NCBI GenBank assembly: GCA_017474235.1
Contig: JAFVIB010000004.1
Span: 186,001 to 250,000, forward strand
Length of the DNA stretch: 64,000 nucleotides
From: Alistipes sp.
GTDB lineage: Bacteria; Bacteroidota; Bacteroidia; Bacteroidales; Rikenellaceae
Direction of reading: 5' to 3'
The translations under genes were made by a program, and so were the position numbers. Of this stretch, positions 15,814-53,335 are shown one piece after another; positions within the stretch are counted from its first letter, which is position 1; every line of letters starts with the position of its first letter. A model generated the notes under the pieces. That model had not been told where the DNA came from, did no database searches, and worked only from the letters and a program-made list of their open reading frames with translations.

Positions 15814-16371
15814 ATGAGACACAATAAGAATTTTAACCACCTTGGCAGACAGGCGGGCCACCGTAAGGCAATGTTGTCTAATATGGCATCGTCCCTGATT
15901 CTCCACAAGCGTATCGAGACTACTGTTGCGAAGGCAAAGGCTGTTCGTCAGTTTGTTGAGCCACTCGTAACTCGCTCGAAGGAGGATACTACTCACTCTC
16001 GTCGTGTAGTTTTCTCATACCTCAAGCAGAAGGAGGCAGTTACCGAGCTGTTCCGTACAATCGCTCCAAAGATTGCAGAGCGTCCGGGCGGCTATACCCG
16101 TATTCTTAAGACCGGTTTCCGTCTTGGTGACGGTGCAGATATGTGTATCATCGAGTTCGTTGATTTCAACGAGGCATACACTACCGGCGTAGCTCCAACA
16201 GCAGCTGCAGCTCCTGCAGAGGCTAAGCCTAAGACTCGTCGCTCTCGCAAGAAGAGCACCGAGGAGGGTGAGGAGAAGAAGGTAGCTAAGACTGCAGCTC
16301 CAAAGAATACCGCAGCAAAGGCTTCAGCAGCTAAGGGTGCTAAGCGTACTAATGTTGGTAAAAAAATGTAA
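15814..16371 (+). CDS. rplQ: 50S ribosomal protein L17 with a long Ala/Lys-rich tail
   Basis: L17 (bL17) lies near the tunnel exit. The conserved core ([20 protein letters not shown] to about residue 125) is followed by about 60 residues of low-complexity Ala, Lys, Thr and Glu. This gives 185 residues against about 120-130 in enterobacteria; similar tails are common in Bacteroidetes L17. It is the last gene of the alpha unit. Its UAA is followed directly by the conserved 3'-UTR motif and then an intrinsic terminator. Confidence 0.96.
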
Positions 16372-16400
16372 TTTTATCGTGATAGCGCGGCATTAGCCGC
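16372..16400 (+). promoter_or_regulatory. 3'-UTR RNA motif, copy 1 (after rplQ)
   Basis: Directly after the rplQ UAA comes TTTTATCGTGATA, then two bases, then a hairpin GCGGC-ATTA-GCCGC (16387-16400). The same core (TCGTGATA plus an immediate short hairpin with different but paired stem bases) follows the stop codons of pgk (16559-16589, minus) and of the oxidoreductase gene (38384-38413). Function unknown. Confidence 0.65.
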
Positions 16401-16414
16401 ACATCCCTAAAAGT

Positions 16415-16465
16415 AAACCCCTTTGGGCTGTAGGTTTTACTACTATCCCAAAGGGGTTTCTTTTG
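16415..16465 (+). terminator. Intrinsic terminator after rplQ
   Basis: AAACCCCTTTGGG (16415-16427) pairs perfectly with CCCAAAGGGGTTT (16447-16459), followed by CTTTTG. It ends the ribosomal superoperon. Confidence 0.85.
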
Positions 16466-16525
16466 TGATGCACGCCTACTACCGCACTCTAACGATAAAA
16501 TGGGTAGCAAGTTGGCAGAATATAA

Positions 16526-16555
16526 AAAGGGTGTTTTCAGTCGAAAACACCCTTT
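16526..16555 (-). terminator. Intrinsic terminator of pgk (possibly bidirectional)
   Basis: A perfect 13-bp stem, AAAGGGTGTTTTC / GAAAACACCCTTT with a 4-nt loop, lies downstream of pgk on the minus strand and ends in a T-rich tract in that direction. The symmetric A/T flanks may also stop readthrough from rplQ. Confidence 0.85.
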
Positions 16556-16558
16556 GTT

Positions 16559-16589
16559 TGTGCCGTAGAGGGCACACTATCACGACAAA
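16559..16589 (-). promoter_or_regulatory. 3'-UTR RNA motif, copy 2 (after pgk)
   Basis: On the minus strand the pgk UAA (16592-16590) is followed at once by TTTGTCGTGATA, one base, and the hairpin TGTGCC-CTCTAC-GGCACA, then the pgk terminator. Sequence and placement match copy 1 after rplQ, but with different stem bases. Confidence 0.65.
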
Positions 16590-17852
16590 TTACTTACGGA
16601 TAGCAGCCACACCCGGAAGCTCCTTACCCTCCATATACTCGAGAAGAGCACCACCACCGGTAGATACATAAGATACCTTATCTGCAAGACCGAACTTGTT
16701 GATACAAGCTACAGAGTCGCCACCACCGATCAGTGAGTAAGCACCAGCAGCAGTTGCCTCTGCGATAGCCTCAGCAACAGCGCGTGAACCGGTTGAGAAC
16801 TTATTAATCTCGAATACGCCTACAGGACCGTTCCAGAGGATAGTCTTGCTCTCAAGAACCTCCTTACGGAAGAGCTCCTTACCGCCCTCAGCGATATCGA
16901 CACCCTCCCACTCTGCAGGAATCTCGCCTACAGGAGCAGACTTAGTATTTGCATTCTCAGAGAAGTCGTCTGCAATAAGTGCATCTGGAGACATAACAAT
17001 CTTGATACCCTTAGCCTTAGCCTTCTCAAGAATCTCGAGAGCTACAGGGAACATATCAGGCTCGCAGATACTCTTACCTACATTGCCACCAAGTGCGCCG
17101 GCGAAAGTATAGGTCATACCGCCACCGATGATAATCTTATCAACCTTCTCCATCAGCTTCTCGATAATGGTAATCTTTGTAGATACCTTTGAACCACCTA
17201 CGATAGCTGTAAATGGACGCTGTGGGTTCTGCATAACGCCGTCGATAGCCTTGAGCTCGTTCTCCATAACATAGCCGAACATCTTATCCTGTGGGAAGTA
17301 GTCAGCGATAAGAGCAGTAGAAGAGTGAGCACGGTGTGCAGTACCGAATGCGTCGTTAATGTAGCAGTCAGCATAAGAAGCGAGCTTCTTTACGAACTCC
17401 TTCTGAGGACCCTCCTTAAGAGCCTTCTTTGCTGCCTTCTTCTCCTCGTCTGTTGCATCCTCAGCAAGACCGCGTGGCTTACCCTCCTCCTCAGCGTAGA
17501 AACGGAGGTTCTCAAGGAGCATTACCTCGCCAGCCTTAAGATTTGCAGCCATATCTGCTGCCTTCTGACCCATGCAGTCGCCTGCGAACTGAATCTTCAC
17601 GCCAAGACGAGCCTCGATAGCAGGGATAATCTGCTCAAGAGAGAACTTTGGATCCGGATTCTTCTTTGGACGACCGAGGTGTGACATAAGAATCACTGCA
17701 CCACCCTTCTCAAGTACCTTCTTGATAGTAGGGATAGCTGCACGGATACGAGTGTCGTCAGTAACCTGACCCTCGCCATTAAGAGGCACATTGAAATCTA
17801 CGCGGATAATTGCGCGCTTGCCTGTAAAATCGTAGTTGTCGATTGCAAACAT
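16590..17852 (-). CDS. pgk: Phosphoglycerate kinase
   Basis: This glycolytic enzyme converts 1,3-bisphosphoglycerate and ADP to 3-phosphoglycerate and ATP. I start at 17852 ([20 protein letters not shown]), because the longer in-frame extension upstream overlaps the promoter and does not resemble the family. The 420-residue protein has the N-terminal signature RVDFNVPLN, the loop [10 protein letters not shown], the nucleotide-binding region and the C-terminal [13 protein letters not shown]. An insertion rich in Lys/Glu (about residues 125-150) is typical of Bacteroidetes enzymes. It is monocistronic: its own promoter at 17903-17910, the conserved 3' motif and a terminator. Confidence 0.97.
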
Positions 17853-17902
17853 AGTTGAGATGTTTTTAATGTTATACTTGATTATATTTACACTTTCTGC
17901 CA

Positions 17903-17910
17903 CAAAATTA
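17903..17910 (-). promoter_or_regulatory. pgk promoter -7 box
   Basis: On the minus strand TAATTTTG (plus CAAAATTA) matches TAnnTTTG and lies 50 nt upstream of the pgk ATG. Confidence 0.65.
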
Positions 17911-17936
17911 CAAAAATTATTCGGATTATAGTAAAA

Positions 17937-17966
17937 AAGAACAGCCATTTTTGGTGGCTGTTCTTA
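17937..17966 (-). terminator. Intrinsic terminator of the YtrA/ABC operon
   Basis: A perfect 11-bp stem AAGAACAGCCA / TGGCTGTTCTT with a 7-nt loop is followed on the minus strand by a T6 tract. It lies 6 nt after the last gene of the operon. Confidence 0.85.
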
Positions 17967-36532: not shown

Positions 36533-38383
36533 ATGAAATCTATCGCAAAAATTGTAGCGGCTTTGCTTGTTATCCTTATGCCGCTTACAGCCTCAGCTCA
36601 GATGAAAACTGAGGCAAACTCTACTGTTAAAAAGCATGTAGAGCTCTCAGCAGATGTTGTTGTCTGCGGAGGTGGTCTTGCCGGTGTTTGTGCGGCTGTA
36701 TCTGCTGCTCGTCACGGTTCAAAGGTTGTCCTTGTTCAGGACCGCCCTGTACTTGGAGGTAATGCATCAAGTGAGATGCGTATGGGTATTGTAGGTACAA
36801 AGATTGACGATACTCAGGAGACAGGTATCCTCGAGGAGATGCAGCTTAGAAACTTCTACTACAACCCTCTTCAGCGTTACACAATGTGGGATGACGCAAT
36901 TTATACAACTGTTATTTCAGAGCCAAATATCAAACTGTTGCTTAATACTTCAGTTAATGATGTTGTTATGAATGGCGAGCGCATTGCTGCTGTAAAAGCT
37001 TGGAATATTAACGCTTATACAGACTATACTATCAATGGCACTATCTTCATAGATTGTACAGGTGATGGTATCCTCCGCCTCTCAGGTGCGCAGTATCGTC
37101 ATGGTCGAGAGCTCCCTTCAGAGTTTGGTGAGAGCTGTCAGGCAGAGGGCGGCGATGCTAAGACTATGGGTAACTCTCTCCTTATCCAGCTTCGCAGAAC
37201 AGATGAGGAGGTTCCATTTGAGGCTCCTGAGTGGGCTTACCACTTTACAGATGCAGACTTTGACTACTCCGTTCCTGAATCTACTATCCCGGGTATGAAG
37301 TTCAACTATAAGCGCATCTACTATGCAGAGGATAATAACTTCTGGTGGTGCGAGTTCGGTGGCAACTTCGATACTATCGCCGATGCAAACGATATCCAGT
37401 TTGAGCTTAAGAAGATTGTCTATGGTATTTGGGAGTATATGAAAAACCATCCTGACGGTCGTGCAAAGGGCTTTGAGCTTGATTGGATTGGCTCACTTCC
37501 GGGCAAGCGCGAGAGTACTCGTTTCGTAGGTCCGCACATCCTTACTCAGAACGACATTCTCAGCGGTGGTCACTTCCCAGATGTTGTGGCTTATGGTGGT
37601 TGGACTCTCGATGATCACCATCCGGATGCATTCCACAAGAAGGGTGCAATCTCTGTTGAATATACTGTTCCACAGGGCTTCGGTATCCCATTCGGTGTTC
37701 TCTACTCTGTAAATGTTCCAAACCTTATGTTCGCAGGTCGTGATATCTCTGCAACTCATATGGGTCTCTCTGCTACCCGCGTTATGGCAACTTGCGCACT
37801 GCTCGGTCAGGCAGCAGGTACAGGTGCAGCAAAGGCTATTGAGAAGGGTGTTGATCCTGCAGAGGTACATAAGACATATATCGGCGAGGTTCAGGCTACC
37901 CTTGAGGATGACGATGTAATGCTTCCATACCGCTGGCGTACCGTTTCAGAGCTCACATCTACAGCTAAGGTTGCTAAACATCTTGAGGTTATCCGCAACG
38001 GTATTGACCGTAATTGGCAGGGTACAGATAATGGCGTTTGGGTAGTTCCAAATAAGAATACCATCACTTATAAGTGGGATGAGCCTGTAACTGTTAGTGC
38101 TGCTCGTATGATCTTTGACTCAGAGCTTAAGGTGCGCAGCAAGCGTATGCGTAAGTTGGAGGCAACTACCGAGCGCGTAGAGATTCCAAAGGTAATGGCT
38201 AAGGGCTTTAAGATTCAGGCTCTCGTTGATAAGGAGTGGAAGACCGTATATGAGGAGGATAACAACTACCTCCGCCTCCGTAAGGTATCTTTCGAGCCTG
38301 TTGAGACTAAGCAGCTCCGTCTTGTCGTAACCGAGACTTGGGGCGCAGAGAAGGCTCATATATTTGCGTTCGACGCACTTTAA
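36533..38383 (+). CDS. Secreted FAD-dependent oxidoreductase
   Basis: The 616-residue protein has a signal peptide (MKSIAKIVAALLVILMPLTASAQ without the last few residues). A Rossmann FAD-binding motif follows (VVVCGGGLAGVCAAVSAARH, about residues 43-62), then LVQDRPVLGGNASSEMRMG, typical of the FAD_oxidored family found in Bacteroidetes carbohydrate-use regions. A second FAD contact (MFAGRDISATHMGLSATRVM) lies near residue 405. The last 130 residues form a beta-sandwich-like domain. Codon use is like the ribosomal genes, suggesting high expression. Its stop is followed by copy 3 of the 3'-UTR motif and a terminator. Substrate unknown. Confidence 0.9.
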   Translation: MKSIAKIVAALLVILMPLTASAQMKTEANSTVKKHVELSADVVVCGGGLAGVCAAVSAARHGSKVVLVQDRPVLGGNASSEMRMGIVGTKIDDTQETGILEEMQLRNFYYNPLQRYTMWDDAIYTTVISEPNIKLLLNTSVNDVVMNGERIAAVKAWNINAYTDYTINGTIFIDCTGDGILRLSGAQYRHGRELPSEFGESCQAEGGDAKTMGNSLLIQLRRTDEEVPFEAPEWAYHFTDADFDYSVPESTIPGMKFNYKRIYYAEDNNFWWCEFGGNFDTIADANDIQFELKKIVYGIWEYMKNHPDGRAKGFELDWIGSLPGKRESTRFVGPHILTQNDILSGGHFPDVVAYGGWTLDDHHPDAFHKKGAISVEYTVPQGFGIPFGVLYSVNVPNLMFAGRDISATHMGLSATRVMATCALLGQAAGTGAAKAIEKGVDPAEVHKTYIGEVQATLEDDDVMLPYRWRTVSELTSTAKVAKHLEVIRNGIDRNWQGTDNGVWVVPNKNTITYKWDEPVTVSAARMIFDSELKVRSKRMRKLEATTERVEIPKVMAKGFKIQALVDKEWKTVYEEDNNYLRLRKVSFEPVETKQLRLVVTETWGAEKAHIFAFDAL

Positions 38384-38413
38384 TTTTGTCGTGATAATGC
38401 GGCATTTGCGCAT
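38384..38413 (+). promoter_or_regulatory. 3'-UTR RNA motif, copy 3 (after the oxidoreductase gene)
   Basis: Directly after the UAA: TTTTGTCGTGATA (38384-38396), then a hairpin ATGCG-N7-CGCAT (38397-38413). The core and position match copies 1 and 2, with different stem bases. Confidence 0.65.
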
Positions 38414-38444
38414 ATAAGAGCGCACCTGCTTCCGCTAACAAAAA

Positions 38445-38494
38445 GTACCCGCAAAGGGAAATACGCATAGTATGTCCCTTCGCGGGTATTTTTG
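38445..38494 (+). terminator. Intrinsic terminator after the oxidoreductase gene
   Basis: TACCCGCAAAGGGA and TCCCTTCGCGGGTA form a stem with one mismatch, followed by TTTTT at 38489-38493. Confidence 0.85.
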
Positions 38495-38813
38495 CCGAGC
38501 GTGGCATCTGCACTCTTCTAAGCACAAATGAGTGCAAGACAGAGACGGAGTACAATCTCTGACAACAAAATGGGTGCAAACTATAGGCGTAGTTTATAGG
38601 TAATTAGTGGTAGATAGCGAAAATATTGACAGCAACATAGCTGCTAATTTGCACCTCGGAGCATAGGAGGTCAGATTTCTCTGCCCGCCTATGCGACAAA
38701 GCCTCCCTTTTTCAAAGGGAGGTTTGGAGGGAATGTAAATATTTTATATTTTATACTATTGGCGAATTATCTCTCTTTTCGGATTTTGGAAAGCCATCGG
38801 AGATGGTACAAGA
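38495..38813. other. Non-coding gap with a CCTCCC palindrome
   Basis: I see no gene in this stretch. It contains an inverted pair GCACTC/GAGTGC (38510-38535), the short direct similarity AAACTATAGG/AGTTTATAGG near 38580-38600, and a palindromic block CCTCCCTTT-TTC-AAAGGGAGG (38702-38722) followed by TTTGGAGGGA. Blocks like the last one look like dispersed palindromic repeats, but copy number cannot be judged here. Confidence 0.6.
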
Positions 38814-38814
38814 A

Positions 38815-38870
38815 AAAGATAGTCCTCTGAGGTCAAGTTTACTTGAAACCGAAAGATGGACTATCTTTTA
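38815..38870 (+). other. Nested hairpin with terminator-like 3' end (possible small RNA)
   Basis: A perfect 11-bp stem AAAGATAGTCC / GGACTATCTTT encloses an inner hairpin TCAAG-TTTA-CTTGA and ends with a short T-run. It is far from any stop codon: the preceding gene already has its own terminator 320 bp upstream. Confidence 0.5.
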
Positions 38871-38875
38871 TTGTA

Positions 38876-38989
38876 ATAGCTGAAGCTATCCTAAATCCGC
38901 AACGCAGAGAAGAGAAACGCAGTTTCTCCGAAAGCTTTTTGCACGCCCTGCTTTTTCTCGAAAAAGCGGGCAGTACTGCGTTAGCTATG
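38876..38989. repeat. Nested multi-stem inverted repeat upstream of rplS
   Basis: An outer pair ATAGCT/AGCTAT plus AACGCAG (38901-38907) / CTGCGTT (38976-38982) encloses two further perfect hairpins: GAGAAAC-GCA-GTTTCTC (38912-38928) and GCTTTTTC-TC-GAAAAAGC (38950-38967). The cruciform layout suggests a non-autonomous repeat or a folded RNA. A 90-codon frame across it is most likely not a gene. Confidence 0.6.
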
Positions 38990-53212: not shown

Positions 53213-53252
53213 GTCAGCGGCGCCCCAGGATGGCGGCTTGCAGAGCTGCAAT
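53213..53252 (+). repeat. 40-bp direct repeat, copy 1
   Basis: Begins GTCAGCGGCGCCCCAGGA and ends AGAGCTGCAAT. Copy 2 at 53296-53335 differs at three positions, all C/T. Copy 1 includes a perfect TTGCAG-AG-CTGCAA palindrome. Confidence 0.85.
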
Positions 53253-53266
53253 CCTGGTAGCTCAAC
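53250..53266 (+). repeat. Partial copy of the tRNA-Gln 3' end
   Basis: AATCCTGGTAGCTCAAC matches the tRNA-Gln end AATCCTGGTAGCCCAAC (53059-53075) at 16 of 17 positions, fused to the end of direct-repeat copy 1. Confidence 0.75.
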
Positions 53267-53295
53267 CGGATTTGTAAGGTGTAGGGGAGGGCTTA

Positions 53296-53335
53296 GTCAG
53301 CGGTGCCCCAGGATGGCGGCTCGTAGAGCTGCAAT
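53296..53335 (+). repeat. 40-bp direct repeat, copy 2
   Basis: Matches copy 1 at 37 of 40 positions. It is not followed by the tRNA-like end. The region 53336-53390 beyond it shows nothing I can name. Confidence 0.85.

Follow-up and report, generated by a model that had tools for sequence, protein, structure and literature searches.

A dispersed palindromic element of about 128 bp lies behind stop codons in Alistipes and folds better on the strand opposite the gene

Introduction

In a stretch of 64,000 nucleotides of Alistipes DNA (hereafter, the window), a first-pass annotation had noticed that three genes end alike: the stop codon is followed by the octamer TCGTGATA and, close behind it, by a short hairpin whose stem bases change and stay paired. 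Octamer and hairpin were taken for one structured motif of the mRNA, which raises the question of what the recurring unit at these gene ends is, on which strand it folds, and how it comes to lie at a stop codon. The three stretches are indeed present after rplQ, pgk, and the FAD oxidoreductase gene, and Pfam bears out the identity of all three genes (Table 1). What recurs there is a dispersed, covarying palindrome with two paired ends, a marked polarity towards stop codons, and a preference for folding on one strand.

The octamer belongs to the left end of a palindromic element

Within the window, TCGTGATA occurs at the three reported sites and once inside a coding frame (37738), and these 4 occurrences compare with 2.0 expected, a count of 4 being reached in 13 of 100 shuffles; across the genome it was found 96 times, and its reversed control 105 times. 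The octamer is therefore ruled out as the unit, since it is enriched neither in the window nor in the genome. When copies from the same genome were lined up, ATTTTATCGTGATAG emerged as the left end of a near-palindrome of about 128 bp with the right end CTCTGACGATAAAAT, the same alignment showing that the unit is opened by TTTTATCGTGATAG and closed by CTCTGACGATAAAAT. The right-end word CTGACGATAAAAT, with up to 1 mismatch, has 68 matches in the genome as compared with 6 for the reversed control. The length of the unit is nearly constant (about 124–130 bases in the complete copies collected) and its interior is highly variable; no reading frame of its own could be assigned to it. Searching the window for hairpins de novo lacked specificity.

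The three reported mini-hairpins consequently cannot be treated as one structure, as each arises from local folding of a left arm and the three share no homology. They differ because the three genes carry a complete element, a fragment, and a junction, respectively. At rplQ, the mini-hairpin folds within the left arm of a complete element, which begins on the final A of the rplQ TAA. At pgk, it is part of a left-end fragment, for which neither a right end nor, at E up to 1, a match to the covariance model (R1, built from 26 sequences, with matches elsewhere accepted at E up to 0.001) was found, and at the FAD oxidoreductase gene it straddles the junction between an interrupted left end and a second, complete element. 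The near-invariant core that had drawn attention to these sites is explained by the element being a dispersed repeat.

Table 1. Genes and element-related features at the three sites of the window
Feature	Position	Strand	Basis and remarks
rplQ (ribosomal protein L17)	15814..16371	+	Pfam PF01196, E 3.5e-37; its TAA adjoins the first element
Complete palindromic element after rplQ	16371..16501	+	Model R1, 81.8 bits, E 2.4e-18 for 16372-16501
Left terminus ATTTTATCGTGATAG of the rplQ element	16371..16385	+	Includes the reported TCGTGATA; read in the sequence
Right terminus CTCTAACGATAAAAT of the rplQ element	16487..16501	+	Pairs with the left terminus
Terminator-like ordinary hairpin 3' of the pgk fragment	16526..16555	-	Sequence and fold
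Left-end fragment directly 3' of the pgk stop	16559..16589	-	Sequence reading
pgk (phosphoglycerate kinase)	16590..17948	-	Pfam PF00162, E 8.3e-149
FAD-dependent oxidoreductase gene	36533..38383	+	Pfam PF12831, E 1.8e-84
Left end of outer element, directly at the FAD-gene TAA	38383..38403	+	Interrupted by the next element; TCGTGATA at 38389-38396
Second, complete element, variant termini ATTTGCGCATATAAGAG / CTCTTCTAAGCACAAAT	38404..38529	+	Model R1, 92.6 bits, E 3.8e-21 for 38405-38529
Right-hand repeat unit GAGTGCAAG...CTCTGACAACAAAAT	38530..38571	+	Occurs tandemly behind many elements

The two termini are inverted copies of each other and vary in step, ATTTTGAAGTGATAG occurring with CTCTGACTTCAAAAT, AATTTATTGTGATAG with ACTCTGACAATAAATT, and ATTTGCGCATATAAGAG with CTCTTCTAAGCACAAAT. 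Among 91 copies, the nine terminal positions (k=-8 to 0) pair in 82–90, and the four of them that vary pair in 82–87, as compared with 39–63 after shuffling. Pairing extends one base beyond the model (79 copies vs. 59.6 shuffled) and then ends sharply, with 20 vs. 14.5 at the next base out.

Several copies and neighboring repeats depart from this plan. A 45-bp miniature (L016, 1496-1545, minus strand) has both termini but almost no interior and lies near a stop codon, and three copies (L264, L246, L265) are chimeric, combining left and right termini of different flavors as if ends had been swapped between copies. At one locus of another genome (L293, G003), the palindrome extends about 11 bases past the element into the coding end, with AAGGCACCTTT on both sides. 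A 41-bp unit, GGTGCAAG-N5-G-N-CGGAGTGCAAAT-CTGACGATAAAAT, lies directly to the right of many elements (L228, L230, L231, and others), sometimes in tandem. Furthermore, the window contains a further long palindrome (38770-38910), a module of which (TTTTCGGATTT..GGTACAAGAAAA..) recurs behind elements at L014, L047, and L050, as well as two intergenic 40-bp direct repeats (53213-53335) that are 93% identical and 83 bp apart.

The better-supported fold is on the complementary strand

In the common plan of the fold, the terminal stem of 10 bp is separated by a 3x3 loop (CAG/AUC) from a 9-bp stem, which a 2x2 loop in turn separates from a long central stem; the apical loop of 4–6 bases lies behind GUAC. 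Covariation, which had been claimed for the mini-hairpins, is strong in the arms of the full element: in 36 non-redundant copies, changes on both sides of a pair were counted in 296 cells, as compared with 92.5 in shuffled and at most 84 in slid alignments, although related sequences inflate such counts. A box C/D-type kink-turn, suggested by GTGATA/CTGA, was dropped on inspection, as the flanking bases pair.

The fold had been assigned to the mRNA strand; the strand complementary to the mRNA is the better-supported one. It folds lower in 48 of 50 copies from the window's genome and in all 42 from others, and in 38 of 39 once redundant copies had been filtered out. In the final set of 36 non-redundant copies, RNA energies favor it in 35 and DNA energies in all 36, the values for the rplQ element being -57.4 for the gene strand and -71.5 for the complementary strand (RNA energy). 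Mismatches tell the same story. On pairs derived from Watson-Crick matches only, a choice that favors neither strand, the complementary orientation gives 81 G.T and 30 A.C cells, and when the structure is drawn from the gene strand, A.C (156) still exceeds G.T (105). Three column pairs are G.T in 30, 24, and 27 of the 36 copies.

Such wobble pairs resemble those of RNA, and the complementary strand might thus be transcribed, the element being an antisense structured RNA with a regulatory role or as part of a ribonucleoprotein. One column pair is C-G in 15, U-G in 14, and U-A in 6 copies, another is G-C in 18, U-G in 9, A-U in 4, and C-G in 4, and the internal loops are uniform, all of which would suit an RNA. 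We nevertheless regard an antisense RNA as quite improbable: DNA energies prefer the same strand, so that RNA is not implied, and by eye there is no constant promoter-like sequence near the right end, only a G-rich, GGGTG-like start.

No Rfam family attains its gathering score with the element, the best match below threshold being a plant-type miRNA precursor family with 27.4 of 90 bits. The literature searched, which included few subscription journals and no supplements, held no description of it; the first-pass annotation, too, knew of no element of this form.

The left end is anchored at stop codons

The position of the element was determined for 80 loci from five genomes (40 from the window's own genome, 20 from G003, 10 from G064, 7 from G075, and 3 from G028). 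The 40 own loci comprise 35 of 36 places listed by the model, one at a contig end being omitted, and 5 known otherwise; the most upstream model match was used at each own locus, and same-strand frames of at least 80 codons were counted. In 31 of the 80 copies, the first base of the left end either coincides with the final base of a stop codon on the same strand or immediately follows it, with TAA, TAG, and TGA all occurring in this role. It follows 1–6 bases past the stop in 12 copies and 9–21 bases past it in 8, in some of which a further left end lies between the stop and the element. In another 13, the gene frame enters the element and stops inside, using a TGA (9) or TTTTAG (4) of the element. 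Two left ends lie at +40 and +59, and 14 loci have no such stop within -16..+60. Altogether, the left end is found within -11..+21 of a stop in 64 of 80 copies, whereas the mirrored right end adjoins a stop in none of the 80 and comes within -12..+21 in 3. A structured element recurring directly behind stop codons, as originally proposed, is thus confirmed. The genome-wide check suggested as a possible refutation had a split outcome, since the octamer shows no enrichment but the full element is anchored at stops and its arms covary.

The anchoring does not seem to reflect a DNA target of the type TRR, which was discarded because copies away from stops, examined by eye, have no such triplet before the left end. 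At one locus (L085, G006), inspection by eye suggests that the element, some 16 bases past the stop, lies within the left arm of a terminator hairpin.

The asymmetry of the two ends also bears on a neutral account, in which the repeat has no selected function, templated repair of imperfect palindromes keeps the arms complementary, and the gene-side flank has eroded up to the stop codon. That the arms match even one base outside the model, and that the match at L293 continues about 11 nt into the coding end, would follow from such repair. However, repair would also erase mismatches and G.T pairs that are conserved at set positions, and erosion should have reached stops at the right end as well, towards convergent genes, where none of the 80 copies adjoins one. 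We consider this account highly improbable.

The element was detected in part of Alistipes and, weakly, in one other genome of the order

With the covariance model, the element was detected in 40 of 61 Alistipes genomes. At least 40 scored matches were obtained in 19 of the 61 and none in 21, the per-genome counts being lower bounds, as at most 57 candidates were scored per genome. Among 197 other genomes of the order, with 17 candidates scored per genome under strict filters, a single one had matches, three weak ones. All three are on contigs C40 and C41 of G202, a genome from a different family of that order, and two of them are neighbors at the start of a contig.

The genus was assigned from the named contigs with the rplQ genes closest to that of the window, the closest of these contigs belonging to MAGs of ruminant guts. 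Downstream of rplQ, other flavors of long hairpin occur: 15 of 51 readable named loci form a hairpin that spans 95 bases or more, with 30 pairs or more, and 14 of these 15 start within 7 bases of the stop. The complementary strand again folds lower, in 12 of the 15, and the termini of these hairpins include AAATCGATTTTAAG, AAATCTGTTTTTAG, ATTTCTTGTGATA, and GTTTTGCCCTCATAAGG. Many other named rplQ loci carry plain terminators instead, and hence the flavor of the rplQ site differs between species.

Copies appear to have spread within genomes and one is old

Spread within genomes is suggested by near-identical copies at different loci of the window's genome (L228-L232), by head-to-tail tandem copies spaced by 1–5 nt, and by nesting of copies. 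Among 110 rplQ loci, 10 gap pairs were found, 7 of which were inspected; 3 of these (L162/L182, L219/L207, L222/L130) are element-sized differences at the rplQ stop, where an older element-like stretch is separated from the stop, in one of two relatives, by an element. These three differences could be due to insertion or loss. No target-site duplication was found in 91 copies, as matching flanks of 2–9 bases showed no excess over shuffles beyond single cases (none at k=2 to 5, one case at k=6). At one gene, DNA identity between the window's genome and G003, G006, and G029 is 75–77%, which makes intergenic alignment in search of empty sites hopeless.

One copy has been retained between two species. 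At the rubrerythrin site (gene assigned by Pfam), G000 and G003 share an element with 112 of 129 positions identical, the gene being identical at 263 of 300, and over the next 120 bases 62 of 134 columns agree, a value equal to that for shuffled sequence; the central stem shows the paired change ATGGG/CCCAT to AAGGG/CCCTT. Judged from this alignment, the rubrerythrin copy is old, not fresh. At the SecDF site, by comparison, the termini differ between the same two species.

Retention of this kind is expected if the elements are functional gene 3' ends, i.e., hairpins for termination or stability that selection maintains, that recombination between copies makes alike, and that are not themselves mobile. 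The single orientation at stop codons, the compensatory change in the rubrerythrin stem, and the pgk gene of G075 (L305; PGK by Pfam), which has the element exactly at its stop in another species, all fit. So does the T-run of at least 4 to the right of the center of the palindrome in 68 of 92 copies; a corresponding A-run lies to the left in 64 of 92, and neither is universal, a terminator being judged here by a GC-rich stem plus a T-run. Against this stand the 21 Alistipes genomes that do without the element and the plain terminators after rplQ in many relatives, as well as the selected fold, which is on the strand opposite the mRNA. Furthermore, a terminating central stem would leave the right arm untranscribed, and yet the right arm covaries. 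On this evidence, immobile functional 3' ends are an unlikely explanation.

No partner enzyme was found among those searched for. REP/RAYT-type mobility was rejected, as no Y1 tyrosine transposase was found in the 61 genomes (a control search was positive in 5 of 14). An IS110 transposase, found in 1 of 61 genomes, is present in none of the 19 element-rich ones and not in the window's genome, which speaks against an IS110 or bridge-RNA element. Retro-mobility was rejected because RVT_1, present in 20 of 61 genomes and in 6 of the 19 element-rich ones, is missing from the window's genome and from 13 of those 19. No integron integrase (TIGR02249) exceeds the cut-off in any of the 61 genomes, and an integron was rejected for this reason; other tyrosine recombinases, below that cut-off, occur in all 61. 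DDE_Tnp_1 was found in 7 of the 61 genomes of the genus but not in the window's, and no autonomous parent with the same termini was seen among the families searched. The window's genome is 98.9% complete. Since MAGs can miss mobile genes, absence of an enzyme is not proof.

Comparison with known systems

REP sequences and REPINs are imperfect palindromes outside genes, with mismatches at fixed places, and come with RAYT transposases. The Alistipes element shares the imperfect palindrome, the location outside genes, and the fixed mismatches, but it is much longer and lacks a Y1 enzyme in the genomes searched. Integron attC sites, with the core RYYYAAC/GTTRRRY, are likewise imperfect palindromes directly behind a gene, with one strand folding better and a structure that is kept as the sequence varies. 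The Alistipes palindrome resembles them in its place behind the gene, in having one better-folding strand, and in keeping structure over sequence; unlike them, it shows no such core and is dispersed behind chromosomal genes, not in arrays.

The ERIC (IRU, RU-1) sequences of enterobacteria are dispersed palindromes of 127 bp, and in Yersinia their insertion at gene 3' ends changes the stability of the mRNA in an orientation-dependent manner (PMC2229807, PMC10969869). The Alistipes element is ERIC-like in being of near-equal length, dispersed, palindromic, and at gene 3' ends. ERIC termini are described as 7 bp long, with TA ends and a target-site duplication (PMC2229807), whereas in Alistipes the paired part of the termini is about 10 bp long, the termini differ between copies of one genome, and no duplication was found, a distinction made by description and not by sequence. 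Bacterial MITEs such as BrickBuilt of Porphyromonas, QMITE2 of Coxiella, Correia, and RUP are equally short and dispersed with inverted termini, and QMITE2 lies mainly in 3' untranslated regions (PMC10969869); the Alistipes element differs in having no target-site duplication, no autonomous relative among those searched for, and an exact anchoring at stop codons. In its modular, clustered, and nested arrangement, it is reminiscent of the BOX/RUP/SPRITE clusters of pneumococcus, in which SPRITE is terminator-like (PMC10969869), though host and sequence are different and the accessible part of that source does not mention stop-codon anchoring for them. Finally, HMP2_4205, a palindromic candidate RNA of 132 bp from human microbiomes and mostly from Bacteroidetes (PMC8040213), is similar in length and palindromic, a likeness by description only, and the palindromic candidate RNAs of that study may include a relative of the Alistipes element.

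Taken together, the element shares parts of its anatomy with MITEs, ERIC, and attC, and departs in a defining property from each of those tested.

Implications

We consider it rather probable that this is a dispersed palindromic element of about 128 bp, mobile or formerly mobile and spread by an activity encoded elsewhere, which is held in a fixed orientation at gene 3' ends and whose selected fold is one long hairpin of the complementary strand. Its active form would be the folded single strand complementary to the gene, which a protein may recognize as DNA or RNA; copies would move within genomes, and the central stem could double as a transcription terminator.

Descriptions of bacterial dispersed palindromes usually place them between genes. 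In the five genomes examined, the Alistipes element joins the gene at its stop codon and in a single orientation, with the conserved fold on the opposite strand, and this anchoring is the surprising part of the finding. A bolder, improbable version of the mobile reading is that a hairpin, selfish or domesticated, becomes attached exactly where translation stops, at any of the three stop codons, via the single-stranded complementary strand. If true, the joining rule would be unreadable from the DNA sequence alone, and insertion would be coupled either to the termination of translation or to the 3' ends of mRNAs. The case also serves as a warning that short 3'-UTR motifs may be the ends of larger repeats, and it raises a defined question that can be put to the test: what attaches a hairpin to the 3' end of a frame, whatever the sequence of that frame?
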